This document shows positions 21,461 to 50,983 of a stretch of DNA of 51,014 bases, one piece after another. The notes under the pieces were generated by a model. The model was not told where the DNA came from, ran no database searches, and saw nothing but the letters and a program-made list of their open reading frames with translations. Source of the DNA: Sulfuricurvum kujiense DSM 16994 (GTDB lineage: Bacteria > Campylobacterota > Campylobacteria > Campylobacterales > Sulfurimonadaceae); assembly GCF_000183725.1 (NCBI RefSeq), contig NC_014756.1, forward strand, positions 1-51,014, read 5' to 3'. Both the position numbers and the translations under genes were made by a program. How positions within the stretch are numbered: the first letter of the stretch is position 1; each line of letters begins with the position of its first letter.

Positions 21461-21651
21461 ATACCTAACATATCTGTATTGCTTTAAATGGAAGATTTCC
21501 CCTTTGATACACTACCAAGGTTAAGGGATAGGAAAATTCCTATTAGGATAACTTACTAAGACTAATTTGTAAGTAAAATCTGAAACTTTTAAAAATCATT
21601 TGCATTTATGGTTTGTAACTCGTTTTTATTTAACCCAAAATAGGTTATCCT

Positions 21652-21689
21652 GGGGTCGTTTCAGGAAACGGAATATATAGCACGTTAAG
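21652..21689 (+). repeat. left terminal inverted repeat of transposon A
   Basis: 38 bp, GGGGTCGTTTCAGG at the outer end and AGCACGTTAAG at the inner end. The right copy (26060-26097) differs only at the eighth base (T versus C). Confidence 0.92.
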
Positions 21690-21709
21690 AGAATTTTACC
21701 ACTCATAAA

Positions 21710-21747
21710 TCATTTTCTACAGAATTCGGAAAAAATAGCACGCTAAG
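21710..21747 (+). repeat. degenerate second copy of the transposon A end
   Basis: Ends ATAGCACGCTAAG, like the inner half of the true end 58 bp away (ATAGCACGTTAAG), and keeps CAG.A..CGGAA before it, but the outer GGGG is absent. It may be an extra transposase-binding site or a decayed older end. Confidence 0.6.
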
Positions 21748-21756
21748 AAGATTTAC

Positions 21757-21804
21757 AATAACTCTATCGAAGCATTTTGCAATAACTCTATCGAAGCATT
21801 TTGC
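21757..21804. repeat. 24-bp exact tandem duplication
   Basis: The unit AATAACTCTATCGAAGCATT plus TTGC occurs twice without gap. The second copy contains the TAG stop and last codons of the minus-strand gene 21788-22216, so the first copy is a duplicated gene end, consistent with replication slippage. Confidence 0.85.
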
Positions 21805-22216
21805 AATAATATTGCTGCTTAGGATCCTCTCTGTTGCCAATCCAGAACTCCATCCCTTTTAGGTAAAGCACTATATTGTTAAAGGCTATCATCCCATCTA
21901 TTTCAGCTACCATTTTATTTTTCAAATCTACAATGGTTCCGCTTGGGAGATCTATTTTAAACACGGTTTGTTTGAATATCAGCGAATCATCCTGTTCTTT
22001 TGTGATGTGTAGACATTCAATAAAACTTTCATTCCCTTGATTTTCCTTCATCCAATTCAAATAACGATCAAATAGTACGGCATTCATATGCAAAAGTACT
22101 TGTTCGTCAATATCCCATACTTTTACGATGCTGATTTTGATATTGATTAGATCATCACCGTACTCGTATATATTGATATCTGCACATGAATCGTTCATAT
22201 GTGTATTATCTGTCAT
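21788..22216 (-). CDS. hypothetical passenger protein of transposon A
   Basis: 142 residues, acidic, no signal peptide, predicted mostly beta at the start (DINIYEYGDDLINIKISIVKV) followed by mixed structure; no motif I recognise. It lies 5 bp after the XRE-like gene and would be the last gene of a three-gene minus-strand operon with ORF6N and XRE. The 3' end is duplicated in a 24-bp tandem repeat. It could be a partner or immunity protein of the regulator pair, but nothing shows this directly. Confidence 0.55.
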   Translation of the reverse strand: MTDNTHMNDSCADINIYEYGDDLINIKISIVKVWDIDEQVLLHMNAVLFDRYLNWMKENQGNESFIECLHITKEQDDSLIFKQTVFKIDLPSGTIVDLKNKMVAEIDGMIAFNNIVLYLKGMEFWIGNREDPKQQYYCKMLR

Positions 22217-22221
22217 AATAA

Positions 22222-22443
22222 TTATTCAATTGTTATTTTTAATTGTCTGCCAAGAGCAGATACAGCTTTCTCAAGCGTTATCAAGGTCACAGATGTGTTA
22301 TCTAAATCCAGTAGCCGATTGATTACCATACGACTAGTTCCCATCCGTTTGGCCAACTCGGTTCTGGTCATGTTTTGTTCTTTAATTGCCATCTCTAGTT
22401 GTTCGGCAATGACCTGCTTGCAAGGGCTAGAAGAATCATGCAT
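22222..22443 (-). CDS. XRE-family HTH protein, antitoxin-like
   Basis: I choose ATG 22443 (73 residues, MHDSSSPCKQVIAEQLEMAI), which overlaps the ORF6N stop by 8 bp; the longer frame to 22536 runs entirely inside the ORF6N gene. The HTH is NMTRTELAKRMGTSRMVINRLLDLDNTSVTLITLEKAVSALG, a HigA/XRE-type fold ending in a short strand (RQLKITIE). Small XRE proteins with this ending often act as antitoxins or repressors. It is part of the minus-strand passenger operon of transposon A. Confidence 0.75.
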   Translation of the reverse strand: MHDSSSPCKQVIAEQLEMAIKEQNMTRTELAKRMGTSRMVINRLLDLDNTSVTLITLEKAVSALGRQLKITIE

Positions 22444-23005
22444 CTTTCTTGCCTCGTAAAAATCCGATTGATTCGACTTCTTTGGCAGTTCCGATATCAG
22501 ATACCACTTCTTGTAGTTCATCGAATGACTCTTCAATCATAATGATCGCATCCGCAACGGCTGAGAGGCGTTCTTTGCTCCATTGTTTATGATCTTGTAA
22601 ATCTTGTCTAAGTGCATGAATTTCTTTGGCTAAATCAGCATGCTCAAGAGCATAACGACGTATACGTGCAAAGGTACGCATGATCGAGATGGTCACTTCC
22701 GCTGCACGTTGGCTTTTGAGAACAGTCGCGAGCATATAGACACCTTGCTCACTGAAGGCTTTAGGGGCTTGTCGTCGCCCTCCCCAACTTGAGGTCACAT
22801 TTTGTGATCTCAAGATTGCAAATTCTTCTTCACTTAATTGGAAGAAAAAATCATCTGGAAATCGATCACTGTTTCTTGAGACAGCCTGATTAATCTGACG
22901 GGTTTCAACCCCATAGAGTTCAGCTAGATCTGAATCGAGCATTACTTCGCTATTGCGGATGGCGTGTATTTTATCTTTGATGGGTGCAGAGGGTAAAACT
23001 TCCAA
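22436..23005 (-). CDS. ORF6N (KilA-N-associated) domain protein
   Basis: 189 residues. The ORF6N domain occupies about residues 8-95: IHAIRNSEVMLDSDLAELYGVETRQINQAVSRN, then FPDDFFFQLSEEEF, AFSEQGVYMLATVLKS and SIMRTFARIRRY. The family comes from phages, where it is a DNA-binding domain fused to variable effectors. The C-terminal half is a coiled-coil-like helix (DLAKEIHALRQDLQDHKQWS). It overlaps the XRE gene by 8 bp and faces away from tnpA, with both promoters in 23006-23094. A role in host takeover or element maintenance is inferred. Confidence 0.8.
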   Translation of the reverse strand: MEVLPSAPIKDKIHAIRNSEVMLDSDLAELYGVETRQINQAVSRNSDRFPDDFFFQLSEEEFAILRSQNVTSSWGGRRQAPKAFSEQGVYMLATVLKSQRAAEVTISIMRTFARIRRYALEHADLAKEIHALRQDLQDHKQWSKERLSAVADAIIMIEESFDELQEVVSDIGTAKEVESIGFLRGKKDA

Positions 23006-23094
23006 AAAATCTCCAAATAGTATAATAATACTATTGTATCTTTTTAGATACGATATGTAAATCTATTTTTTACATTTTTATAGAAGGAATTGAT

Positions 23095-26064
23095 ATGCCG
23101 CGTCGATCGATCTTATCCGCTTCCGAAAAAGAGAGCCTAATCGCCATTCTTGCATCTGAAGAAGAATTGATCCGGCATTACACCCTGAGCGAAACTGATC
23201 TATCCATTATTCGTCAGCATAGAGGTGCGGCCAATCGGCTTGGCTTCGCTGTACAGCTTTGTTATCTTCGCTATCCCGGAATTCTATTAGGCCCTAAGGA
23301 GGCTCCAAACAATGCGGTTGTAGAGATCGTGTCCCAACAGCTGAAAGTATCTGCTGGTCTATGGGATCAATTTGGAATAAGGGAGCAGACAAGGCGTGAA
23401 TACCTGCTGGAGCTGCAAAATATTTTTGGATATGAGCTCTTCACAATGAGCCATTATCAATCGGAAGTTCAAGCACTAGGCACTATTGCGCTTCAAACTG
23501 ACAAAGGGATTGTGCTAGCAACAGAGTTAGTAGAACATTTACGCCGTAAGTTAATAATCCTACCCTCAATCAACGTGATCGAAAGAATGTGTGCGGAAGC
23601 ACTTACTGTTGCAACCAGACACATTTATTCCACACTCTGCGATCCGTTGAGTAAACAGCAGTATCAACAATTAGACGCATTACTTTTACGAAAGCCCGAA
23701 GGAAAAATGACATGGCTTGGCTGGCTACGTCTTTCCCCTGCAAAACAAAACTCCAAATATATGCTTGAACATATTGAACGTCTAAAAATGCTTCAAGAGA
23801 TCAAATTAGTTGCAGGGATAGAGCGAACCCTTCATCAAAACCGTTTATTGAAAATGGCACGAGAAGGTTCTCAGATGACTCCGGCAGACCTTTCGCGGCT
23901 TGAAACAAGCCGAAAATACGCTACTTTAGTGACTATTGTCATCGAGTTAACAGCAACTATAACCGATGAAATCATCGATCTTCATGACAAAATAATCGGT
24001 ATTCTCTTTAACAATGCCAAAAATAAACATCAAAATCAGTTTCAATCTTCCAGTAAAGCAATAAACGATAAAGTTCGTCTCTACACAAAAATCGGGCAGG
24101 CACTCCTTGATGCGAAGCAAAGCGGGAAGGACCCTTATGCAGCAATTGAAAAAATAATCTCGTGGGATGAGTTTGCAAGTAGCATCGATGAAGCCAACAA
24201 ACTGGCGATGAATGAAGATTTTGATTTTTTGCCTCGTATCGGTGAAAATTATCCGACTCTGCGACGCTATGTTCCCCAATTTTTAAATATTCTTCAACTG
24301 CGTGCTGCACCCGCTGCCGTTGATCTTCTTAGTGGCATTGATATCATTCGAAAACTCTATGCCGACAATAGCCGCAAACTCCCTGCCGAAGTCCCCACTA
24401 CATTTATCAAGCGTCGATGGGGGAAGCTCGTTTTTACAAAAGAAGGTGTTCATCGTATTTACTATGAAATATGTGTTCTGTCTGAACTTAAAAATGCTTT
24501 ACGTTCAGGAGACATTTGGGTACAGGGATCTCGGCAATATAAAGATTTCGATGAGTATTTGATCCCCTCTGAAACGTTTGAACGTTCCATGAAGGAAGGG
24601 ACTCTTGCTTTAAAATACGATACCAACTGTGAAATCTATCTTGAAGATCGACTCTCAACGCTTAATGCACGATTTTTAACTGTGAATGAGATGGCAAAAA
24701 ACAACACACTGCCTGATGCAATCATCGGTCAATCGGGGTTGAAAATAACACCACTGGAAACTATTGTACCTGAGAATGCACAGACATTGATTAATCGTAC
24801 ATCGGCGATGCTGCCGCATATCAAAATAACCGAACTACTGCTGGAGGTAGAAGAGTGGACAGGATTCTCAAACCATTTTACCCATCTCAAAACTGCCGAA
24901 AAGGTCAAAGACAAGCTGATGCTATTGAGTGCCATCTTAGCAGATGCCATAAACCTTGGTTTGGTAAAAATGGCTGAATCATCACAGGGAAATACCTACG
25001 CAAAACTCTCATGGCTGCAAGCTTGGCATATTCGTGATGAAACCTATTCCAGAGCTTTGGCGGAACTGGTTAACTCACAGTTGAAACAGCCTTTTGCTGC
25101 TCATTGGGGCGATGGAACAACCTCTTCATCAGACGGACAACGATTTCGCGCCGGAAGCAAAGCACAAAGCACTGGACATATCAACCCAAAATATGGGAGC
25201 GAACCGGGGCGTCTTTTCTATACCCACATATCCGATCAATATTCACCTTTCAGTTCTAAACTCGTAAATGTCGGCATACGAGATTCAACCTACGTGCTTG
25301 ACGGACTGTTATATCACGAATCTGATCTTCAAATCGAAGAACACTACACCGATACTGCGGGATTTACCGACCATGTATTTGCCATGATGCATCTACTTGG
25401 ATTTCGATTTGCACCAAGAATCAGAGATTTGGCGGATACTAAAATTTATATCCCGTATGCTTCCATTGACTATGATTCTCTTAAGCTACTGATTGGCGGA
25501 ACCATCGGAATTAAAAATATTCAAACACATTGGAATGAAATTCTCCGATTAAGTGCATCCATCAAACAAGGAACGGTTACAGCTTCACTGATGCTTCGCA
25601 AGCTTGCGAGCTATCCTAGACAAAACGGGTTAGCACTCGCCTTAAGAGAATTAGGACGAATCGAGCGATCTCTCTTTATTCTCGATTGGCTCCAAAGTGT
25701 TGAACTGCGCCGCCGAGTAAATGCCGGATTAAATAAGGGTGAAGCCCGAAATGCATTGGCTCGTGCCGTCTTTTTTAATCGTTTAGGTGAAATCCGTGAT
25801 CGAAATTATGAGCAGCAACGGTTTCGTGCCAGCGGTTTGACATTAGTGACTGCCGCGATTGTTCTATGGAATACGGTTTATTTGGAAAGGGCAATTGCTT
25901 CTATGCGTACAAGAGATGACATCGTCGTAGATGATGAATTGTTAAAATATTTGTCGCCACTAGGCTGGGAACATATCAATTTAACAGGCGATTACGTCTG
26001 GAAAAAGAGTTCGAAGATCAAAGATGGCAAATTTAGGCCTTTAAGGGCGGTAAAATTCTCTTAA
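23095..26064 (+). CDS. tnpA: Tn3-family transposase of transposon A
   Basis: A 989-residue DDE transposase. It opens with [17 protein letters not shown] (DNA-binding N-terminus that recognises the 38-bp ends), contains [14 protein letters not shown] (first catalytic Asp, about 670-680), [15 protein letters not shown] (second Asp region) and [11 protein letters not shown] (Glu near 882), and ends with [14 protein letters not shown]. It catalyses replicative transposition. The stop lies 33 bp before the right outer end's inner border region. Together with transposon B's enzyme it is clearly homologous but not a close copy. Confidence 0.95.
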
Positions 26065-26097
26065 CGTGCTATATATTCCGTTTCCTGAAGCGACCCC
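26060..26097 (-). repeat. right terminal inverted repeat of transposon A
   Basis: Reverse complement of the left end with one mismatch. It overlaps the last codon and stop of tnpA (26060-26064). Its outer border is in codon contact with the antiporter gene: read leftward, the ...SYIAHYWG reading frame continues into the repeat as RFRKRNI and stops at TAG (26069-26071). Confidence 0.92.
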
Positions 26098-26797
26098 AAT
26101 AATGGGCGATGTACGAAGCACCTATAGCTAAAAACAGTATGCTTCCGACAAACAGCTCATCCGAGTTGGTTTTTATAATCTGGGTTAAAAACGGCTCCAG
26201 TAGGTATTTGCCGAATATCCATAAAATAGAGAGCAAAATGACTGCACTAAATGCCATCTCTATCAATACAGTCGAAATATTTTCTGTTTTACTGCTCATA
26301 AATCCAATAATGAGGAGAATGGGGATGACAGCGATGTCTTGCATAATCAAAATTCCGAGAGAGCGCTGACCGTGACGACGATTAATTTCACCGCTTTCAT
26401 TAAGGATTTTAAGGACTATCGCAGTCGATGAGAGGGAGAGTACCAGTGCAATAATAAAAGAGGAATTTGGATCAAGTTCCAAAAGATAATAAGCGATTAG
26501 ATAGACAATAGAGGATGTAATAATGATTTGTAACGTTCCGGCTACAAAAACCTCATTACGCATCCGTTTGAGATGAGCAATAGAAAACTCTAATCCGATC
26601 GTAAACATCAAAAAGACAACACCGAATTCGGCAATCTCTTTTAGATCATGGTTGCTTACCGCATTATGAAGATTAAAGCCATACGCGATAGCCGTACCGG
26701 TTAAAATATAGCCGATAATAGTTGGGAGATGGATTTTTTTAACAAAGATATTAATAATGAGTGATAAAAGGAGTGTAGTAACAATAATAGTTTGCAC
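26069..26797 (-). pseudogene. Kef-type cation/proton antiporter, 3' end cut by transposon A
   Basis: I choose GTG 26797, preceded by AAAGGAGAG. The remaining 242 codons encode membrane segments typical of the CPA2 family: VQTIIVTTLLLSLIINIF, IHLPTIIGYILTGTAI, EFGVVFLMFTIGLEF, ALVLSLSSTAIVLKIL, GILIMQDIAVIPILLII. The family normally has about 12 segments and often a regulatory RCK part; here the sequence stops at IGASYIAHYWG and the last seven residues come from the transposon end. It is not expected to work. The missing 3' half is not present on the other side of the transposon. Confidence 0.85.
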
Positions 26798-36002: not shown

Positions 36003-36040
36003 AAACTCTGTACAGAAAACGGAAAATATAGCACGTTAAT
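36003..36040 (+). repeat. isolated relic resembling the transposon A end
   Basis: CAG.AAACGGAA.ATATAGCACGTTAA at 36013-36039 matches the inner two-thirds of the 38-bp end of transposon A and is equally close to the degenerate copy at 21710-21747 (both begin TACAGAA). The outer GGGG is missing. It lies 2.8 kb from transposon B and more than 9.9 kb from transposon A. Confidence 0.65.
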
Positions 36041-36180
36041 AAAATCAATCATTCTTCATAGACAAGTCTAACAATATAGACTTATACCAATATATAGTCT
36101 AATAATAAAACTATAATACAGATTAATAGACTATAAATACCAATAATAACACCATTACCATCTAAAATAAGAGATTATCT

Positions 36181-36197
36181 CCATTAAATGACCTCTA
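36181..36197 (-). repeat. solitary iteron-like site
   Basis: On the minus strand TAGAGGTCATTTAATGG, matching the origin iteron TGTAGGTCATTTAATGG at 15 of 17 bases, with 14 contiguous. It is in the opposite orientation to the origin array and about 12 kb from it, in noncoding DNA. Confidence 0.75.
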
Positions 36198-36492
36198 TGT
36201 TTTGAATAAAACAATTCTTTTTACTCTTTGTTGCTATTAATCCTTGAAGAATTATAGCAAAAAAGCACTATACATACAAGATAATATTGTATTATCTTAG
36301 TATTAATAACAAAACGAAGCCATATTGTGCATCAACATTCCAACTGATTGCTCCATATAGCTAAAGCGTATTATCTATGTTATATAAATATTTATAGTTT
36401 CAATAATGTCATTATTATTGACTATATACGCATTTATAGCTATTATACTTCTATTATATAGCCATAAAGCATTACTAAAAGGAAATAATCTC

Positions 36493-41516: not shown

Positions 41517-43611
41517 ATCCTCTCTGATGCTGTTTATAGAAAAAGCAAAAAAACATCCATCAATTCCTAAAAACTTTATTGATTCGGTAGTATTGGTTTT
41601 AAACCGAATTCATAATAACACAAATGCCAAAGAAGTTGAAATCATCAATCAAAAATTTGTGTTTAACACATCATTCATCGAGTATTTTGCCAATATCATT
41701 GATCTACCAAAGAGCTCAGACAACACCATATATTACAAAAATTTTCTACGATTAAAAAAATTCAAAATCATCCACCAAAAGTCATCTGATTTTTATCCAA
41801 ACAGACTGCGGCTGCTTTCCATCAATCCTAATCCGATATCATTGCTACATGAAGAGTTCAGTCAAATCGATCAGTACCTTGAAGCAAAAAAAGCGTTTTT
41901 GCATGATCTTGATTCCATTCAAGACAAATATACACTTATTGGCGCTTTATCCATTTACTTGCATTATTACCATTTTCCCAATTTCACCAAAAAAGAGCTC
42001 TATTCCCTTTCAAGATGCCATTACTCAGTTATAGATTCAAATCGTGTCTGCCTGTTTTATCCTAAACGTTCCCCTCTTGCGTTAAATGACAGTGGAAATA
42101 CCTTCTATCAATCCGTTCTGCTCGATGAAATTGCATCAAAACTATTTCTTTACGACAAAAATCTCTTTACAAATCTCGACACTGCTTATATTTATAAACA
42201 ATTATCTTCCTACCAAAAAATGGTATTTTCTTATATGAGCTCTGATGCTATATCCATCGCCCGTAAAAATCATTTTTTGTTTTCCCATACCCCTGTAGAG
42301 TATTCCATCAAAAATAAATCACTTCGCCCTCCTATGCTCTGTTTTAATGAAATCAAAGCTATATTTCCCCAATGTTCTGAAAGTGGAATCGGTCAAATTG
42401 AATCAAAACTAATTAATAAAGCCAGCCTCAAAGCCTCCTCAATCAGCCTCAATGAAGAAAATGACGACGACGATTTCATGGAAGACAATTCAGAAATTTG
42501 GTGGTCATATTCGGATATGTTCGCATTTAAAGAACTACTCAAGACTCAAAAATCGATACATAAATCGATTTTAGAAAATGCGTTAAAAGAATTGGATTCC
42601 CATAAGGAACAAGCTGATACTAGAGGTGATATTCACTCCAAGATGATATTTGAATTTCTTTACCATTTGGTCATTCGGCTTGATGGCAAACACAAGATCA
42701 GGCAAAAAACATTCAAAAATTATTTCTCAACACTAAGAGTCCATTTATTCAATAAAGTCAAAAATCTCGCAAATCCGCAAAATTATGAGATTCGGAAAAT
42801 CATTCAATATCTTGAAAATAATGGGTATAAAAAGAAAACTGTTTTTAAGATCAAGTACCTAATTCGGCGTTTTTATCGCTTCCATTCTCATAATGGGATC
42901 AACATCGATATCGCGTTGAACAGCTATTCGAAGTCACTTGTTTTTGATTTTGAGATTGATTCCATTTTAGAAGAGCTTGAAATTGATTTCCGGCTTCAGC
43001 ATAATTTTAAAAGAGAAGGGAAGTGGGTCAGATTACAACTACTCCAACAAAAAGTGCTTGTATTATTGACTTTCTATACTGGAATGAGAAAAAAGGAGAT
43101 CCTTTCGCGTTTATGGAAAGATTTCATGCTTTTTGGCAACGAAATCATAGTGGATGTCAATAATGAAGGAATGAAGCCTCTTGGATGGAATTTGAAAACA
43201 AGAAATGCAAAACGCAAAATATCTGTAAAGATTCCTATTCCTCACCACCTTGAATTGATCAAAGAGTGGTATGATCTTCGCTCCTCCACCTCCAAAAGCG
43301 GGTATTTATTTGTAACACAAAAAAGCAACGGATCCCCTAAGGTCAAAGAACCTCTACCAGAATCTATTATTGAAATTTTTAACACAATTATTGCAGAGAA
43401 AACAGGTCGATATTGTACTTTTCATTCATTAAGACATTCATTTGCGACTTATGCTTTTTTAGAAATCTTACGCTTAAAACAAAACTTTCCGTATGCAATC
43501 ATCGAATTAGCTGTCAAACTTGGTCATGAAACACCTGAAACAACTATCAATACCTATGTTCATTACGATGTTGCGCAGCTTCTCCAAACGGATGTTAGCG
43601 TTCCTCAATGA
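41509..43611 (+). CDS. large tyrosine recombinase
   Basis: 700 residues. The C-terminal domain has a complete catalytic set: R in FYTGMRKKEILS, HSLR in TFHSLRHSFATYAF, H in VKLGHETPE and Y in NTYVHYDV. The N-terminal about 370 residues are unassigned and include an acidic linker (NEENDDDDFMEDNSE). The preceding core-binding domain is about 370-480. Its size resembles the large partner enzymes in multi-recombinase elements. It overlaps the 866-residue gene by 8 bp and overlaps the convergent gene 43595-43993 by 17 bp, so an element edge may fall here. Confidence 0.85.
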   Translation: MFESSLMLFIEKAKKHPSIPKNFIDSVVLVLNRIHNNTNAKEVEIINQKFVFNTSFIEYFANIIDLPKSSDNTIYYKNFLRLKKFKIIHQKSSDFYPNRLRLLSINPNPISLLHEEFSQIDQYLEAKKAFLHDLDSIQDKYTLIGALSIYLHYYHFPNFTKKELYSLSRCHYSVIDSNRVCLFYPKRSPLALNDSGNTFYQSVLLDEIASKLFLYDKNLFTNLDTAYIYKQLSSYQKMVFSYMSSDAISIARKNHFLFSHTPVEYSIKNKSLRPPMLCFNEIKAIFPQCSESGIGQIESKLINKASLKASSISLNEENDDDDFMEDNSEIWWSYSDMFAFKELLKTQKSIHKSILENALKELDSHKEQADTRGDIHSKMIFEFLYHLVIRLDGKHKIRQKTFKNYFSTLRVHLFNKVKNLANPQNYEIRKIIQYLENNGYKKKTVFKIKYLIRRFYRFHSHNGINIDIALNSYSKSLVFDFEIDSILEELEIDFRLQHNFKREGKWVRLQLLQQKVLVLLTFYTGMRKKEILSRLWKDFMLFGNEIIVDVNNEGMKPLGWNLKTRNAKRKISVKIPIPHHLELIKEWYDLRSSTSKSGYLFVTQKSNGSPKVKEPLPESIIEIFNTIIAEKTGRYCTFHSLRHSFATYAFLEILRLKQNFPYAIIELAVKLGHETPETTINTYVHYDVAQLLQTDVSVPQ

Positions 43612-43993
43612 TTTTTAAACACTCCGCATCATCCGCCATCTCAATCGTATAATGCTCGATTGAGAGTTCAATGGCACGTTTAACCTGATACGCTTTTTTC
43701 TCATCTAGCGAAAAACACTCTATTAACAGATCAACCGCTGCATGTGGCATCGTAAAACGCCATTGATGCTCGTCGTAAGATTCACCACAGCGGTCAGTAT
43801 CATTTGGATGGGAGGTAATGAAGTTGCCTCGCCTATAGTAACGTATCTGAGGATCATCTTCACCCTCGTAGATGCGAAATAGCTCCTCTTTTTTTTGATT
43901 GTGTTGTTTTTTTGGAGAGCGTTTATAGCGGATAACATAAATTATCAAGCCCAATAGTACAATGATATTTAGAACCATCCAAGTATTACTCAT
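43595..43993 (-). CDS. hypothetical membrane-anchored protein, last gene of the nine-gene operon
   Basis: 132 residues with an N-terminal membrane segment (TWMVLNIIVLLGLIIYVIRY) followed by a basic stretch (KRSPKKQHNQKK), giving a cytoplasmic C-terminal domain of about 100 residues. That domain includes two cysteines and an acidic helix (DECFSL-like region and KRAIELSIEHYTIEM). It overlaps the recombinase gene end by 17 bp. The family is not recognised; it belongs to the operon by direction and spacing. Confidence 0.6.
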   Translation of the reverse strand: MSNTWMVLNIIVLLGLIIYVIRYKRSPKKQHNQKKEELFRIYEGEDDPQIRYYRRGNFITSHPNDTDRCGESYDEHQWRFTMPHAAVDLLIECFSLDEKKAYQVKRAIELSIEHYTIEMADDAECLKIIEER

Positions 43994-44041
43994 TTTAGTT
44001 TTTCCTTAATCGTTTTGAAATGATTGGTTATTGAGAGCGGT

Positions 44042-44227
44042 TTAAAAAAGATTCAATACCCTTCTGGAAAACGCACTCTGTGGATAAAAGATAATGGTGG
44101 CGGCCGTAAATGCAAACACAAATAAAAAAAATGCCACCCCAAATTCTTGAATACTGTGCACTCCTACCCCTGCAAAAAGTGCAGGGATAAAAAAGATCAA
44201 AGCACTCATCCATTGTTTAATGCGCAT
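44042..44227 (-). CDS. small two-segment membrane protein
   Basis: 61 residues from ATG 44227 (MRIKQWMSALIFF); an in-frame ATG at 44260 is possible but lies deeper in the WGR gene. Two hydrophobic segments: ALIFFIPALFAGVGVHSI and FGVAFFLFVFAFTAATIIF. It overlaps the WGR-like gene end by 22 bp. Function unknown. Confidence 0.5.
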   Translation of the reverse strand: MRIKQWMSALIFFIPALFAGVGVHSIQEFGVAFFLFVFAFTAATIIFYPQSAFSRRVLNLF

Positions 44228-44451
44228 CGGTTTGTATATCCCTTTTTTAGTTTGGCACATATCAATGATTGCATCGACTCAGCGGCAGTTTCTGCACTGT
44301 CATAAATCTCACTAATCACTCCGGTGGGCTTGAGTTTCTTGATCGAACCATAGGTACGGACTACCATCCACTCAGAAAAGAGGTTTGGAATTAGCTCAAT
44401 CGTGTAATACCGTATCCTACCCTTAACGCTTCGTGTCATCGTCATTTTCAT
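44206..44451 (-). CDS. WGR-like domain protein
   Basis: 81 residues from ATG 44451; ATGs at 44445 and 44439 are also possible. RIRYYTIELIPNLFSEWMVVRTYGSIKKL and LICAKLKKGYTNR follow the WGR domain pattern (Y.l.l.pnLF.eW.vvR.WG... and K.rrGY), with the name-giving Trp-Gly-Arg changed to Tyr-Gly-Ser. WGR domains bind nucleic acid ends in PARP-type and related proteins. It is the only clear nucleic-acid-type protein in the operon besides the RNase-H-like one. It overlaps both neighbours. Confidence 0.68.
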   Translation of the reverse strand: MKMTMTRSVKGRIRYYTIELIPNLFSEWMVVRTYGSIKKLKPTGVISEIYDSAETAAESMQSLICAKLKKGYTNRCALNNG

Positions 44452-44785
44452 AATCGTGTTTCCCGAATTTTGCATCTTTAATAGCACTCACTTTGGATCC
44501 ATCTTCCATTAAATGACCTACGTTTTTGGATTTTTGGTACGCATCGATCTGCTCTTGGGTGATACCGCTTTCACAGTACCCCCGTTTCATATCCTTGTTG
44601 TTCAGATATCGCCCGACCAAACCCAGCAAACCAATAATGGCTAATGTAGCGGCGATGATAGTTGTGGGATTGATCTGATCATCGAATCCGTAGGTTTGTC
44701 CGTATTGGTAGATAGCCAGCCCATAGATTTGCACAAGTACCAGCAGTGTCCAGTAGGTTAGAAATTTAGACATTCTTTTGCTCAT
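44423..44785 (-). CDS. hypothetical membrane protein with an internal iteron-like DNA site
   Basis: 120 residues with two membrane segments (FLTYWTLLVLVQIYGLAIY and TIIAATLAIIGLLGLVGRYL) and a charged cytoplasmic tail. Codons for NVGHLMEDG contain a 16-base sequence identical to the origin iteron (44506-44522). It overlaps the upstream gene by 20 bp and the WGR-like gene by 29 bp. The family is not recognised. Confidence 0.6.
   Translation of the reverse strand: MSKRMSKFLTYWTLLVLVQIYGLAIYQYGQTYGFDDQINPTTIIAATLAIIGLLGLVGRYLNNKDMKRGYCESGITQEQIDAYQKSKNVGHLMEDGSKVSAIKDAKFGKHDYENDDDTKR
44506..44522 (-). repeat. iteron-identical site inside a coding sequence
   Basis: On the minus strand CGTAGGTCATTTAATGG: 16 of 17 bases match the origin iteron, and the origin copy at 48424 also begins with C. 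It lies about 3.7 kb from the array, in the opposite orientation, within the codons for NVGHLME. A chance 16-base match in 51 kb is very unlikely even with AT bias. Confidence 0.8.
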
Positions 44786-45389
44786 GGTGTACCTCCTTCA
44801 TGTATTCATCACTCGATTCATAATAATCTCCTACAAACTCATTCCACTCTTTGAGCTCCGGATCGTTTTTATAGAGTTCCGCCATCGCAGCAGCTCCTTT
44901 TTCGATTGTGGCTTTACGTTCCTCACGGGCCTTGGTTTTTTTGTGTCTCTCGCCCAGCTGTCGAAACATCCAAGCCATCCATCCAAAAATACCGATCAAT
45001 ATACTCGTTCCGATAATGATCTGCGTTGTTATACTGATACAGTGCGGTTCGCTGCTGTTGAGTATTTCACACTGATCTTCAAGAATCTCTACTCCTCGAT
45101 TCCCCTTAAATAGGTATTGCCCTTTGTGCTCCCATCCACTGCTCTTAGAGATGAGAAGCGGATGGGCATTATCATCTTTACAGATAACCTCCCCTCCCCT
45201 ATCAAAATGATTCCCATAATAACCCTGCCTATCGTTTCGGCTGCAGATATCGTCTCCCCAGACCATAACTAAAAGTAAAAACAACCCAACTATCGGGACG
45301 ATCATCTCTTTGAGAAACGTTACGCTCACTGCACCCACCAAGAGTATCAGCCCCATCAATGCCATCATATCCATATCAAAGTGACTCAT
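44766..45389 (-). CDS. hypothetical membrane protein with an SGW-type soluble domain
   Basis: 207 residues. Two or so N-terminal hydrophobic segments (ALMGLILLVGAVSVTFL, IVPIVGLFLLLVMVW), then about 75 soluble residues (VICKDDNAHPLLISKSSGW, YLFKGNRGVEILEDQCEIL), another segment (IIIGTSILIGIFGWMAWMF) and a charged tail. The soluble part shares a pattern (C, then L..., SGW, FKG[ND], D.C.[IV], EP) with the protein at 46406-46882, so the two look like paralogues in one operon. Several cysteines could form disulfides in the periplasm. Function unknown. Confidence 0.6.
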   Translation of the reverse strand: MSHFDMDMMALMGLILLVGAVSVTFLKEMIVPIVGLFLLLVMVWGDDICSRNDRQGYYGNHFDRGGEVICKDDNAHPLLISKSSGWEHKGQYLFKGNRGVEILEDQCEILNSSEPHCISITTQIIIGTSILIGIFGWMAWMFRQLGERHKKTKAREERKATIEKGAAAMAELYKNDPELKEWNEFVGDYYESSDEYMKEVHHEQKNV

Positions 45390-45398
45390 TTTTCCCCC

Positions 45399-46106
45399 TT
45401 ATGCCGCAATCGGCCCTTTTAATGTATTTCGTGCTGCTTCCTCAAACCAGCTCATATCAAATTCTGCAGCTTTAAGCAGTTCGTCGTAGAGTTTTTGCTT
45501 GTAGCATTGGATATGTTTGAATCGCTCAGAGAGGAGACGATGGAGATTTTGGCTCCCGGCAAAGAGTAATAAAGCAATGATCTTCTCATTCACCTCTTTG
45601 ATGTTGTTGGGATAAGGTTTCATCATCGGTGCAGTACCGCTGATGGCACATAGGTATCCATAAGTCTCTCCGCGTGTGAGAGGCATCAATGCGCTCACCA
45701 GCTCCTCATCGCTGATTTGGGAGGCATGGGCAAGAATCTGTTTGGTCCAGTTTGCATTTTTAGCGTGTTTGAGTCTGACGTTAAATGCAAGAGCGTCTAC
45801 TTGAGATAGGTAAGCACGCTTCATCCACAAAAACTGAATCCGATCGAACATCTTAGAAAAAAAAGCTCCAATGCTTTTGGTGTCGATCCCCATGTTGTCA
45901 TAGACAAAGACGCAGTTACGGTGTTGATGCTCGATCGCATGGGTAATCGCTTCAATGAGGGCGAACTCTTCGGCTTCGTGTACATTCATGGCGTGGACAA
46001 ATACAGAATGGCTTTGGTTCGTATAGAGGTTTTTTACCCCTATTCCCGCCTCTTTGGTGAGGTGGTCATACGACGCATCACTGAGATATATGACATTATT
46101 TTCCAT
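45399..46106 (-). CDS. RNase-H-fold-like protein
   Basis: The start at ATG 46106 follows the excellent site AAGGAGGAGACACC; the longer frame to 46154 lies in the upstream gene. The 235-residue protein opens with NVIYLSDASYD, then AEEFALIEAITHAIEH and CVFVYDNMGID, which match the D, E and D positions and spacing of RNase-H-type folds (DAS, AE..AL..A, YDN). The C-terminal half is helical. It is the only enzyme-like protein in the membrane operon; a nuclease or non-catalytic binding role is inferred. Confidence 0.6.
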   Translation of the reverse strand: MENNVIYLSDASYDHLTKEAGIGVKNLYTNQSHSVFVHAMNVHEAEEFALIEAITHAIEHQHRNCVFVYDNMGIDTKSIGAFFSKMFDRIQFLWMKRAYLSQVDALAFNVRLKHAKNANWTKQILAHASQISDEELVSALMPLTRGETYGYLCAISGTAPMMKPYPNNIKEVNEKIIALLLFAGSQNLHRLLSERFKHIQCYKQKLYDELLKAAEFDMSWFEEAARNTLKGPIAA

Positions 46107-46425
46107 GGGGTGTCTCCTCCTTTTGGGAGTGTTCTGCATGCTTTTCCTCTTCATGCATCGTTTTAAGATCCCGTATACACTGACGGCTTTGCTTTAAAAG
46201 GATCCACAGTGTGACCAACATCGAGAGAACCATAAAGAGCAAGCTTGCTGCCAATAGCCATTTCATCGCTACACCTAGCCCAACTCCCACACTTAAAACT
46301 AAATACCCGACACTGATTAGATAAAGTCGTTGACGCCGTTCATGTATGATAATCCGTAGCATCAAAACACTAAGTCCCCAGTAAAAAAGACTTAGAAAAA
46401 CGATATCACTCAGCTCTTGTGTCAT
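46096..46425 (-). CDS. small membrane protein
   Basis: 109 residues from ATG 46425, preceded by GAGGAAAA; an ATG at 46443 gives six more residues. Three hydrophobic segments (IVFLSLFYWGLSVLMLRIII, LYLISVGYLVLSVGVGLGV, WLLAASLLFMVLSMLVTLWIL) and a charged tail (EEEKHAEHSQKEE). It overlaps both neighbours, by 11 and 20 bp. The family is not recognised. Confidence 0.58.
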   Translation of the reverse strand: MTQELSDIVFLSLFYWGLSVLMLRIIIHERRQRLYLISVGYLVLSVGVGLGVAMKWLLAASLLFMVLSMLVTLWILLKQSRQCIRDLKTMHEEEKHAEHSQKEETPHGK

Positions 46426-46882
46426 CTTTTTCCTCCTCAACACCTAGCGTCACCGCCCGCAGTGTCATCAACACACCTATGAGTGTGACTAAGACCATCC
46501 AATACGGAACACTTGAGGGTTCTGGAAAAGCTTTTTCAATCACCCTACACACTCCAGGATCATTAATGATTACATCCCCTTTCACAAATCCGGTCCCCTC
46601 CTCATATCTCCACCCACTTAAGCGATCAACCCTAGCACTCTCCCCTCTCCATAAACCGCAGGACAATGCCTGCCCCTTATGAAACTGCTCCATCAAAAAA
46701 CGCTCACCTAGGTAGTGTGTGTGGTTAGTGTAGGCAATGGTAAATACTCCCACAATCACCACTATCCCGACAAAAACAAACTCAGCCCCTCTTCCATAGA
46801 GGATAAATCCAGCTCCTATGAGCAGCAATACACTCAACAGCCACACTTCACCGGTACTGGTAACCAACATCTCAGGATGCAT
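46406..46882 (-). CDS. hypothetical membrane protein with an SGW-type soluble domain
   Basis: 158 residues from ATG 46882, which follows GAGGAG and the previous stop by one base; the longer frame to 46963 is inside that gene. Two hydrophobic segments (VWLLSVLLLIGAGFILY, FVFVGIVVIVGVFTIAY), about 70 soluble residues (ALSCGLWRGESARVDRLSGW, GFVKGDVIINDPGVCRVIE) and a third segment. The soluble part is similar in pattern to the 44766-45389 protein. Likely envelope protein of the plasmid's uncharacterised operon. Confidence 0.6.
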   Translation of the reverse strand: MHPEMLVTSTGEVWLLSVLLLIGAGFILYGRGAEFVFVGIVVIVGVFTIAYTNHTHYLGERFLMEQFHKGQALSCGLWRGESARVDRLSGWRYEEGTGFVKGDVIINDPGVCRVIEKAFPEPSSVPYWMVLVTLIGVLMTLRAVTLGVEEEKDDTRAE

Positions 46883-46883
46883 C

Positions 46884-47288
46884 TCATCTCTCCTCGTAAG
46901 AGTATGAGAGCACAGCAGAGCGTTCATGGATACGATAATCTTTATACTGACACAGATACACACTTCGAATTTCGCGTTTCAATACACCGCACACGTTGTA
47001 CCAGGTGAATCCGAAAAAACTTTTTTTATGAATTAGCTCTTGGGGATGGAGGCAAAGAATCTTTTCATAATCCAATCCCATCCCTTTATGTTCGGTATAG
47101 AGAGTTTGTTCCCCTTCAATTTCATATCTCTCCTCAACAGAGTCATACCGCATTATCGCGTCACGGAAAATTTTATGCTGCTCGTCACACTCCACAAAAT
47201 AAAAACGCTCCCCCTTAGGGTTGATCAGGATCTCTTTTTTCCCTTCATCAATGAGTAAATCGATATCGCTAAAACACACATGGCTCAT
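46884..47288 (-). CDS. hypothetical protein, first gene of the membrane operon
   Basis: 134 residues with AAAAGGAGA before the ATG. No membrane segment; mixed strands and helices (EILINPKGERFYFVECDEQHKIF, SFFGFTWYNVCGVLKREIRSVYL). As first gene of a nine-gene run it could be a soluble partner or regulator. The palindrome TAAAC-ATAC-GTTTA (47316-47329) lies upstream and may control it. The family is not recognised. Confidence 0.58.
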   Translation of the reverse strand: MSHVCFSDIDLLIDEGKKEILINPKGERFYFVECDEQHKIFRDAIMRYDSVEERYEIEGEQTLYTEHKGMGLDYEKILCLHPQELIHKKSFFGFTWYNVCGVLKREIRSVYLCQYKDYRIHERSAVLSYSYEER

Positions 47289-47594: not shown

Positions 47595-47834
47595 ATGGAC
47601 AAACACGCTTTTAACGACTTACTTAAAATTGCAGGGCTTTCTAAAAAGGAATTTGCCGAGATTTTAGGGACGACCGGCGGTACGATCAGTAACTGGGGGA
47701 ATGAAGATCGCGAGATCCCTTATTGGGTAGAGTCGTGGTTGAGTCTCTATATTGAGAATCAGCACTGCAAGAAGATCAAAGAAGCGATTAGTAAAAGCGG
47801 TGTATGCAATTTAATGGATAAAAAACCCAAGTGA
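47595..47834 (+). CDS. small HTH regulator
   Basis: 79 residues. FNDLLKIAGLSKKEFAEILGTTGGTISNWGNEDREIPYWVESWL is a Cro/C1-type HTH, with the recognition helix around TGGTISNWG and a tail that may dimerise. GGGAACC before the ATG is a weak ribosome site. It is divergent from the nine-gene membrane operon and overlaps the next membrane gene by 4 bp, so it is the likely local regulator. Confidence 0.75.
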   Translation: MDKHAFNDLLKIAGLSKKEFAEILGTTGGTISNWGNEDREIPYWVESWLSLYIENQHCKKIKEAISKSGVCNLMDKKPK

Positions 47835-48109: not shown

Positions 48110-48259
48110 AATTTTAAAATTACGTTTACTAAAACCCTCTCATCCATCTAGGTACCATAGCGCCTTCCCCCTGTTCCCAATGCATTATCGATTTGAGTGA
48201 TCAATTTTTCAGACTTTTTAGGAATCGTTCAGAGATATAAACACCATATTTGATAATAA

Positions 48260-48773
48260 TGTAGGTCACTTAATGGAATGTGTAGGTCATTTAATGGAGC
48301 GAACTTATTGGTTCATACTACGTGAATTATCGGTATTTACGTCATTTCACGCTTTTTTTAAAGCTATTTACATAAAAAATGCAAACCCATAAGTTACCTA
48401 TTTCCCTTTGATAGGGTATTTTGCGTAGGTCAAATAATGTACTCACTTTTTTTATGTAGGTCAAATAATGCCAGCAATTCAAAAATGTAGGTCATTTAAT
48501 GGAATACAAGCCTTCGATGGTTATTTCATAACTATTATTAACCGATTGCTTATCTGTAAAAGAAATATTTGCCATTTAATGATTCAAAATTACTTTTTTC
48601 ACTTCATATCTAGTTTTTTAACGTGCACAAATTCATTATATTCTCATAAATACCTGTATTTTAATAAGTATTTATTATTGGTATGTCGGTCATTTAATGG
48701 GAAGTGTAGGTCATTTAATGGGATTTAGCGATATGTGTAGGTCATTTAATGGGAAGTGTAGGTCATTTAATGC
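48260..48773 (+). repeat. nine-copy iteron array, core GTAGGTCATTTAATGG
   Basis: 17-base units start at 48260, 48281, 48424, 48455, 48486, 48684, 48705, 48736 and 48757, all in one direction. Within groups the steps are 21 or 31 bp, i.e. two or three helical turns, so bound initiators would line up on one face of the DNA. Units at 48424 and 48455 have CAAATAATG in place of CATTTAATG, and 48684 has TGTCGG. A decayed fragment (CATTTAATG) is at 48573. These are the expected binding sites of the initiator encoded at 48878-49759. Confidence 0.95.
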
Positions 48774-48877: not shown

Positions 48878-49759
48878 CTATTTTGAGAGCAAAGACTGAA
48901 GAGGAGCAGAAAAAGTGATTTTTGCATCTTCTTGTTTGCGATATAAAATCTTTTTGATCTTTTTTCGTCCAGATTCAGTTACTTCTTCTTCAAGTGTAGA
49001 AATACCAAATTTTTCCAGGGTGTCTATATTTGATTCAATTTCACGACGAGCAGTTCTTATGGCATTTTCACTGTCTTGAGGGTAACCTACTGTTGTTAAT
49101 AGAGCTTTTATTTCCATCTTTGAAGCATCCTTGTGTGTCCAAAAGAAACGGACAATCGCTCTGAGTAATGCGCTTTGAATAGTTAACAACTTATCTAACT
49201 CATCAATATAACCGATAGTTAATTGACCTTCAATGTAGTTTCTATATTTTGAAGAGAATACAATTTTAAATTCACCTGTCTCTGGGATTGCACCATCATC
49301 TTCGAGAATTTGAAATGCGTAATATTTTTTACTATGGTCTTCCATTTCTATGGACGTATTACGAATTTCCCGAATCTTTGTCCGTAGCCATGTATGATTT
49401 GAACCGGCTGTATTTCCGTATCGTTTTAAAACATCCGTTTCATTAAAAAATACAGCAACACTACCGCCTTCCAATTCTTCGATATTATTAGCAGATGCAA
49501 AAATACAGTCTAATAAATCTCTGTGGACTTGAGTTAAAATATTACCAGTAACAAGAACTTTTCCCCATGATGTACTAATCGCACGAGAGCGTTTGTTTTT
49601 AATGAAATTTTTGTAAATAAGACTTGTTGAAGAAACTTTTTCAATAGGTGCCCATAGGCCAGTTCTGAGTTCTGAAACAGAAACGTTAGATCGTTCCATT
49701 TTTGAAATAATGTCAATCTCAAATTTACTTTGATTCGGGGAATCTTTTCTTTTTGCCAT
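48878..49759 (-). CDS. plasmid replication initiator (winged-helix, RepC/TrfA/RepB-like)
   Basis: 293 residues. The order of segments fits a tandem winged-helix initiator: ILTQVHRDLLDCIFASANN, DVLKRYGNTAGSNHTWLRTKI, then IGYIDELDKLLTIQSALLRAIVRFFWTHKD, and a second unit ending AIRTARREIESNIDTLEKFGI. It would bind the adjacent iterons and open the origin. Its ATG follows directly on the helicase stop (TAGATG), so expression is coupled. The helicase-initiator pair recalls IncQ repA-repC, although no RepB primase or mob gene is present. Confidence 0.85.
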   Translation of the reverse strand: MAKRKDSPNQSKFEIDIISKMERSNVSVSELRTGLWAPIEKVSSTSLIYKNFIKNKRSRAISTSWGKVLVTGNILTQVHRDLLDCIFASANNIEELEGGSVAVFFNETDVLKRYGNTAGSNHTWLRTKIREIRNTSIEMEDHSKKYYAFQILEDDGAIPETGEFKIVFSSKYRNYIEGQLTIGYIDELDKLLTIQSALLRAIVRFFWTHKDASKMEIKALLTTVGYPQDSENAIRTARREIESNIDTLEKFGISTLEEEVTESGRKKIKKILYRKQEDAKITFSAPLQSLLSK

Positions 49760-50983
49760 CTAATCTCCAATAAATACTGAATTGAATCGTTCAGAACGAC
49801 CAGAAGTAGTTGAATTATCTTTGCTAGGGAAAATTTGTCGTTCAACTTCGTTTGATTTTAAAATTGCGCCTGCATTATAATTATCTTTCGCGAGACGAAC
49901 AAGTCGCATATGTAATTTTGATTCATCAATCTCTTTGTCTTTGTTTCGTATGCGATCAACTTCATAATGAAGGCGTGCCGCATCAACTATAGCCCCTGCT
50001 CCACGAGAGCCAGCAGTTCCTTTAGTTGAATGATGAATAAAAACAATAGTTTTTTCGTTTTTTCCTGCATATTCAGTAAATAGTTGCATGAAAAATCGAG
50101 CATGTCCATTATTGTTTTCATCGCCTCCAAAAAAAGCAATAAGCGGATCAAGGATTATCAAATCATAAGGATCAAAAACTTTTTTCATATCATGCCAAAT
50201 AGGATCTGTTGTTACTTTATTTCCAATAATATTTAGTAAATGTGGAGTTGCGTCATCTGCAATATCTATTTTAAGATTTGGTATAGAGTTTTCAAGTACA
50301 CCTGAAAGAATTTTATTTAAACGTGATTTAGAAAGAGTTTTTGGATCTTCTGAAAGCCATAAAAATGCTCTGGATGTTTTGTTTTGAATACAAAAACGAG
50401 CGGCAATTTGTAAAACGGTCCAAGTTTTTCCAGAACCTCCAGGTGCTGTAACTAATGAGACAGTGTTACGAGGAATAGGAAGCCAATCTTTTAGAATGAA
50501 TTCAACTTCTTTTTCTTCAATTTCCTCATGATTCGTAGGATGTGGCAATCGTCGATCTATACTCATCCCCTCTTCAAGTGCTACAATTAATTCTTTGGCC
50601 GCATTTATTGGATCTTCTGCTTGGGCAGCTTTTTTAAATTGTGTTGATAGTCCTAAAAGAGTTCTTCTATCTTTATATTTTGCAAGTTCTTGAATATAAG
50701 GTGTAATACTAGCTATTGGGTTTGCAGTTAGAACTTCAATCATTACTCTTTCATCAAATTGTCCGATTCGATTTAATTCAGATCTCAAAAATTCTTCATC
50801 AATGGGTTTATCCATCGCAGTTAAATTGATCATAGCAGTATAAATATTTTGATGGGCAACAAGATAAAAATACTCACGTGAAAGTTGATTCGATATATAT
50901 GTAAAATCGCTAGGATTAAAAATAATAGAAGACAATATAGATCTTTCAAATGGTATATTATAGATCTCTAACTCGTCATTCAT
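49760..50983 (-). CDS. repA: RepA-type replicative helicase with a DnaB-like N-terminal domain
   Basis: 407 residues. Residues 1 to about 115 look like a DnaB N-terminal domain: PFERSILSSIIFNPSDFTYI, EYFYLVAHQNIYTAMINL, DEEFLRSELNRIGQF and ITPYIQELAKYKDRRTLLGL. The RecA-like domain follows, as in RSF1010 RepA: APGGSGKTWTVLQIA (Walker A, about 180), LIILDPLIAFFGGDENNNG (Walker B) and IVFIHHSTKG. Known IncQ RepA lacks the N-terminal part, so this version may recruit the host primase like DnaB. AGGGGAAG precedes the ATG. It is the first gene of the operon. Confidence 0.85.
   Translation of the reverse strand: MNDELEIYNIPFERSILSSIIFNPSDFTYISNQLSREYFYLVAHQNIYTAMINLTAMDKPIDEEFLRSELNRIGQFDERVMIEVLTANPIASITPYIQELAKYKDRRTLLGLSTQFKKAAQAEDPINAAKELIVALEEGMSIDRRLPHPTNHEEIEEKEVEFILKDWLPIPRNTVSLVTAPGGSGKTWTVLQIAARFCIQNKTSRAFLWLSEDPKTLSKSRLNKILSGVLENSIPNLKIDIADDATPHLLNIIGNKVTTDPIWHDMKKVFDPYDLIILDPLIAFFGGDENNNGHARFFMQLFTEYAGKNEKTIVFIHHSTKGTAGSRGAGAIVDAARLHYEVDRIRNKDKEIDESKLHMRLVRLAKDNYNAGAILKSNEVERQIFPSKDNSTTSGRSERFNSVFIGD

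Follow-up and report, generated by a model that had tools for sequence, protein, structure and literature searches.

What is a copy of a replication-origin iteron doing within the codons of a small plasmid cargo gene, and does it bear on the replication of the plasmid that carries it? The stretch of DNA analyzed here, termed the window, is the entire contig C3 (51,014 bp) of a genome of five contigs and 2.82 Mb, in which contigs C1 (118,585 bp) and C2 (71,513 bp) are read as further plasmids because replication genes adjoin iteron arrays there. The features of the window that bear on the question are:

43595 to 47288, minus strand: cargo operon containing the host gene, matched by plasmid C2 DNA that is 88% identical
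44423 to 44785, minus strand: host gene P0001, 120 amino acids, no Pfam match
44506 to 44522, minus strand: solitary iteron CGTAGGTCATTTAATGG, identical to the array consensus at 16 of 17 positions
48129 to 48222, minus strand: 3' remnant of a radical-SAM gene, 81% identical over 94 nt to the copy on G064:C31
48260 to 48773, plus strand: origin iteron array, nine copies of a 17-nt unit, consensus TGTAGGTCATTTAATGG, starting at 48260, 48281, 48424, 48455, 48486, 48684, 48705, 48736 and 48757
48878 to 49759, minus strand: probable initiator, 293 amino acids, adjoining the array as it likewise does in relatives
49760 to 50983, minus strand: replicative-helicase-like protein with DnaB N-terminal and AAA_25 domains

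Within groups, the iterons of the array lie 21 or 31 nt apart, start to start. As in Rep_3 iteron replicons, a direct-repeat array adjoins an initiator gene with Rep3_N relatives, the Pfam Rep3_N domain being matched by 8 of 17 aligned members of the initiator family (E up to 0.05). However, the window protein itself has no Pfam match and is paired with the DnaB-N/AAA_25 helicase-like gene; a PDB profile search gave a best match at E 0.097, and a PDB search with the single sequence gave one match at E 0.41. The cargo operon codes for one RVT_3 protein and otherwise mostly for small proteins that match no Pfam family above the cut-off. DNA and protein searches of a plasmid collection, and a search of viral contigs, found nothing. 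The window also harbors a 4.4-kb element (21650 to 26098) with a 99.9% identical copy on C1, the 59-bp ends of which match at 93% in inverted orientation.

The lone copy differs from the consensus solely in its first base, a mismatch within the array's own variation, as the array copy at 48424 has C in this position too. It lies in frame in the host gene, where AAC GTA GGT CAT TTA ATG GAA encodes N-V-G-H-L-M-E; a gap of 3,738 bp separates it from the array, whose first copy is at 48260. The preliminary description, which reported a 16-base iteron copy inverted in these codons about 3.7 kb from the array and a chance expectation of about 2e-5, more with AT bias, is correct on both counts: for an exact 16-mer on both strands of the window, equal base frequencies give an expectation of 2.4e-5, the base composition of the window 3.9e-5 and a first-order Markov model 2.6e-5. 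Allowing up to three mismatches to the iteron, the whole window contains 11 matches against 0.23 expected, of which eight are in the array and the others are at 44506 (one mismatch), 36181 (two) and 47801 (three). On a weight matrix built from 18 array copies, those of this plasmid and of G064:C94, the gene site reaches 26.8 bits, which exceeds three of the nine own array copies and six of all 18. When the codons of the host gene were shuffled with protein and codons fixed, a match to the iteron with one mismatch or none arose in 4.4% of shuffles; the same procedure on seven other operon genes gave zero such sites in 2,000 trials. The sequence match at 44506 to 44522 exceeds simple chance. It is a single copy rather than a cluster of several iterons, and the next lone copy with up to two mismatches is 8.3 kb away in an intergenic region with two lone sites about 130 bp apart, one of the plasmid's own type and one of a foreign type:

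36181 to 36197, minus strand: second lone iteron TAGAGGTCATTTAATGG, two mismatches, intergenic
36313 to 36329, plus strand: solitary AACGAAGCCATATTGTG, differing at one base from AACGAAGTCATATTGTG, the iteron of another plasmid family

This intergenic region (36013 to 36400) adjoins a PIN-domain gene and a sequence weakly matching Phd/YefM, and contains a 33-nt segment that matches, at 88%, the termini of a transposon-like element of C1. We also considered the motif as the operator of a small HTH protein (47595 to 47834); there is no match with up to three mismatches before that gene, the sole nearby one, at 47801, lying inside it. Nor is it a motif scattered throughout the genus: in 41 genomes, with arrays, host gene and radical-SAM gene excluded, there were 8 matches with up to one mismatch against 16 for the reversed pattern.

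The first alternative to be weighed is a coding coincidence, in which the tail of a small protein needs the residues G-H-L-M, the codons commonly used for them spell the iteron core by accident, and replication is irrelevant. The host gene product is probably a small membrane protein, with two hydrophobic stretches recognizable by eye. A search of 228 genomes of the family yielded matches in 9 genomes at E up to 0.01, and full-length copies of the gene are found on five contigs (C3, C2, G058:C70, G064:C94 and G070:C7). The preliminary description had named homologs with other codons for the same residues as one half of what would speak against the site; in all five full-length copies G-H-L-M is encoded by the same GGT CAT TTA ATG G, the three bases preceding it being GTA in three copies, GGA in one and GGT in one. 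Three invariant codons in a row are unremarkable alone, since 30 of 77 degenerate one-residue columns have one codon in the five copies. At 13 nt, this is the host gene's longest invariant run; codon-column shuffles match it in 34% of cases when the whole gene is used (P = 0.34) and in 4% when only the tail is used. In the whole-module alignment, where 13 runs reach 13 nt or more, it is inconspicuous. A six-codon window over G-H-L-M ranks first of 109 for synonymous identity (0.975 versus a mean of 0.67), windows of five codons tie for first, and shorter windows at the site tie with six others (four codons) or twelve others (three codons). Synonymous conservation over these codons, a comparison the preliminary description had proposed, is highest in the gene at the six-codon scale. 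Coincidence gains from the whole-gene test of the invariant run, from the 4.4% of shuffles that yield such a site and from the three plasmids that keep it without this array. However, it has to contend with the zero yield from seven other operon genes, with G-H-L-M codons that stay constant while the surrounding tail diverges among homologs, with the lack of G-H-L-M in five more distant relatives, and with the radical-SAM and intergenic lone iterons described below, for which it would need a separate account; on balance we regard it as unlikely. Three paralogs of the host gene stop near the site, and two more distant relatives carry different tails. An internal ribosome site with a start codon (GGAGG-7-ATG) can be set aside, as GGAGG is present in only one of the five homologs, that of G064.

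The distribution of the site over the five plasmids provides the chief result against a simple outlying iteron of the plasmid's own. Among the homolog-bearing plasmids the window's iteron is common only to the G064:C94 array; the arrays of C2, G058:C70 and G070:C7 are unrelated, with own iterons TTACCCCTAATACCCTA (C2), AATCGTAACAACCGTGT (G058) and ACAAAATACTAACGTTT (G070:C7), and the site is present in them all the same. Hence, with three of five homologs on plasmids with unrelated arrays, retention of the site does not track the resident initiator. Furthermore, the G064:C94 site TGGAGGTCATTTAATGG, on the plasmid with the matching array, scores 24.0 bits versus 26.8 in the window. The proposal of an outlying own iteron thus stands insofar as the match is beyond chance and own lone copies are in excess, and is weakened by these three plasmids and by the lower score in G064:C94.

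The excess of own lone copies emerged from loci taken around relatives of the initiator, in which arrays were located by script and the remainder was scanned for the locus's own iteron. Of 34 loci scanned, 31 with an initiator relative and three with a larger C1-type Rep, 33 gave a credible array; L135 was dropped, its best repeat being unlike an iteron array. The array-bearing 1,400-bp region was excluded in each locus, as a result of which the radical-SAM site of C1 is lost from the own-iteron count. In the 613,079 bases of the 33 loci there are 13 own iterons outside arrays with up to two mismatches, whereas shuffled control iterons give 0.2 and reversed ones 0. Four of these are exact, five have one mismatch and four have two; they are spread over 12 of the 33 loci and reduce to about 10 once homologous sites are merged. 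Iterons of foreign families gave 95 matches in 16.2 Mb, or 5.9 per Mb versus 21.2 per Mb for own iterons, and likewise exceed the shuffled rate, this count being inflated by many matches that represent one place matched by several near-identical iterons. Judged by the lists of open reading frames, 10 of these 13 are situated outside likely genes, and in five of them a stop codon is 3 to 14 nt away. On three plasmids an exact own iteron occurs 9 to 14 nt behind an impB/mucB-type polymerase gene (L126:12522, L130:3870 and L131:7071), and the sequence past the iteron differs between them; Pfam IMS was matched in both copies of the gene tested. Among three other impB/mucB-type copies, one has a two-mismatch iteron, on a plasmid with another iteron, and two have none. 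A held-out set of 13 loci from other families gave three matches with up to two mismatches versus 0.3 shuffled, two of which fall in a low-complexity repeat of L179 mistaken for an array by the script; with one credible site in these loci, the excess is shown only for this initiator family, and a feature of the wider initiator family is not borne out.

Several individual sites deserve mention. On two contigs (L180:2891 and L140:4765) an exact lone iteron precedes a ParA-type gene, which is in keeping with initiator control of partition. In C2, a lone iteron (L011:14073-14089) 23 nt ahead of the start of a helicase-like gene is a possible autoregulatory operator; the corresponding place in the window (400 bp at the window ends) contains no iteron with up to five mismatches. 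An exact TGTAGGTCATTTAATGG also occurs alone on a small contig, in an apparently intergenic position (L052:286-302, G058:C100).

Further coding examples come from a radical-SAM gene (PF04055) that adjoins several sister origins and has a chromosomal copy (G000:C4) in the same genome. Its embedded iterons are exemplified by:

L011, 17755 to 17771: iteron embedded in the radical-SAM gene of C2
L016, 1042 to 1058 (C1, 21042 to 21058): iteron embedded in the radical-SAM gene of C1
L053, L054, L055 and L056: further copies

Six radical-SAM genes were compared; they comprise every homolog from a protein search that is full-length, uninterrupted and 73% identical or more, and were not selected by motif. 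The exact C1-type 17-mer AACGTAACAACTTTGCG is present in five of the six and the exact C3-type TGTAGGTCATTTAATGG in four, and in a table of 30 copies of the gene, sites of either type with up to two mismatches are confined to these six and the decayed copy on C1. Synonymous identity reaches 100% in only 4 of 287 six-codon windows, starting at codons 81, 82, 83 and 222, and these four correspond to the two embedded iteron sites, against a gene mean of 67%. The C1-type match stops at the 17-base unit on either side. In 20,000 codon-shuffle trials the exact site arose in 0.015% for the C1 type (C2 gene) and 0.16% for the C3 type (G064:C31 gene), and AACGTAACAACTTTGCG with up to one mismatch has 13 matches in 41 genomes, the reversed pattern having none. 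In another genus, the G107 copy of the gene carries the exact iteron of the G151 and G216 loci, GGGTAGTCATTTAATAG, a second exact copy of which precedes a ParA/ParB gene pair on the same contig; no array was seen on this 4.9-kb contig. The radical-SAM gene of G065:C9 contains a pair of oppositely oriented C3-type sites spaced 24 bp apart (L055:7376 and 7400), one of them exact over 15 bases. As the radical-SAM remnant (48129 to 48222) abuts the window array and the exact 17-mer is present in intact copies, we suspected that the iterons were born from this gene; this is rejected, in that the window iteron looks like an ordinary member of the iteron family of related initiators (e.g. AACGAAGTCATTTAATT and GGGTAGTCATTTAATAG) and the alignment homology stops at the iteron, two further bases agreeing with one array copy.

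The lone iterons could alternatively be relics, the cargo module having once stood beside such an origin and the copy having been left, now functionless, after replicon exchange. Such an origin accords with a module that adjoins different replicon types, with the foreign-family lone iterons, with the immediate divergence of plasmids past the iteron behind the impB/mucB-type gene, with the three paralogs that end near the site, and with the decayed radical-SAM copies of G066 and G047, which have drifted to three mismatches in their C1-type sites and two in their C3-type sites. Yet a relic would be expected to decay at the synonymous rate, whereas synonymous identity in the radical-SAM gene peaks at its embedded sites and the C1-type 17-mer is exact in two other decayed copies, those of C1 (81% identity) and G071:C5 (74%), which leaves this explanation rather improbable.

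Given that foreign iterons are kept too, the modules could be relics of earlier replicons or the sites could act between plasmids in one cell. In its general form, which we offer as a speculation with little probability, cargo genes flanking origins would hold the iterons of several co-resident replicon families by codon choice under DNA-level selection, so that a plasmid might sense or titrate the initiators of its sisters, coupling copy numbers or excluding rivals. That such cross-plasmid titration or sensing of another plasmid's initiator explains the site is highly doubtful: C2 does hold the window plasmid's iteron (16 of 17 bases, in the homologous gene, at C2:21995-22011) and the exact C1 iteron (in its radical-SAM gene) while its own iterons differ, G065 has a C1-type site on G065:C19 and a Rep of that type on G065:C9, and G064 has a C3-type site on G064:C76 and an array of that type on G064:C94, but in the carriers G064 and G071 no C1-type Rep was found in the genome and in G058, G065, G070 and G071 no C3-type array was seen (several of these genomes being drafts), and one site per plasmid makes a weak decoy.

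From the sequence match, its position, the constant core codons in five homologs and the excess of lone iterons in related loci, we propose that the site is an initiator recognition sequence within the codons of a cargo gene, which would slightly lower initiation and copy number, an explanation that, taken as a whole, we hold to have an even chance of being right. The initiator encoded at 48878 to 49759 would bind 44506 to 44522, and the bound lone iteron would then pair or compete with the array 3.7 kb away, by looping or handcuffing within the plasmid; alternatively, it might pair between plasmids or titrate free initiator. In consequence, initiation and copy number would be slightly reduced, so that the site is probably a weak negative control site acting by titration or handcuffing, a single copy being weak as a titrator. 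The operon would be the carrier of the site and not its target. Looping to regulate the operon is conceivable, but nothing was found that ties the site to operon expression. The wider lone-iteron pattern partly supports our interpretation, and does so more strongly elsewhere than at the window site; the excess of stray iterons on related plasmids suggests a possible second role for genes as sites of replication control.

Comparable arrangements are known. At the incA control locus of P1, initiator iterons away from the origin cut copy number by handcuffing; incA is a multi-iteron array near the rep gene, whereas here there is one iteron, 3.7 kb off, in an unrelated gene. Initiator sites additional to those of a plasmid origin have been described as inhibitory, through titration and interaction with origin sites (PMC3937223), and the external RctB sites of Vibrio cholerae chromosome II are likewise origin iterons away from the origin, with initiator titration or inhibition (PMC3937223, PMC6090056). 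The RctB sites differ in that binding and inhibition have been shown and in that one 74-kb stretch has five iterons and a 39-mer-like site (PMC3937223, PMC6090056), in contrast to the single candidate copy here, in coding sequence and on a plasmid. The repD gene of pTiR10, which is translated and contains two parS-like sites for RepB (PMC6090056), resembles the present case as a translated plasmid gene carrying sites for maintenance proteins in its DNA; it differs in that these are partition sites, not iterons, and lie inside the rep operon itself. Among the matches listed from the open-licence PMC literature there was no paper on solitary iterons kept in plasmid cargo coding sequences, which is weak evidence of absence.

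The sites found lend themselves to a defined set of short synonymous changes, including a co-resident plasmid pair of which one carries the other's iteron. If lone iterons in and beside genes are real initiator sites, the origin alone would be insufficient to read the copy-number control and incompatibility of plasmids, and lone iterons may serve to mark where the cargo of a plasmid is, or once was, coupled to its replicon.
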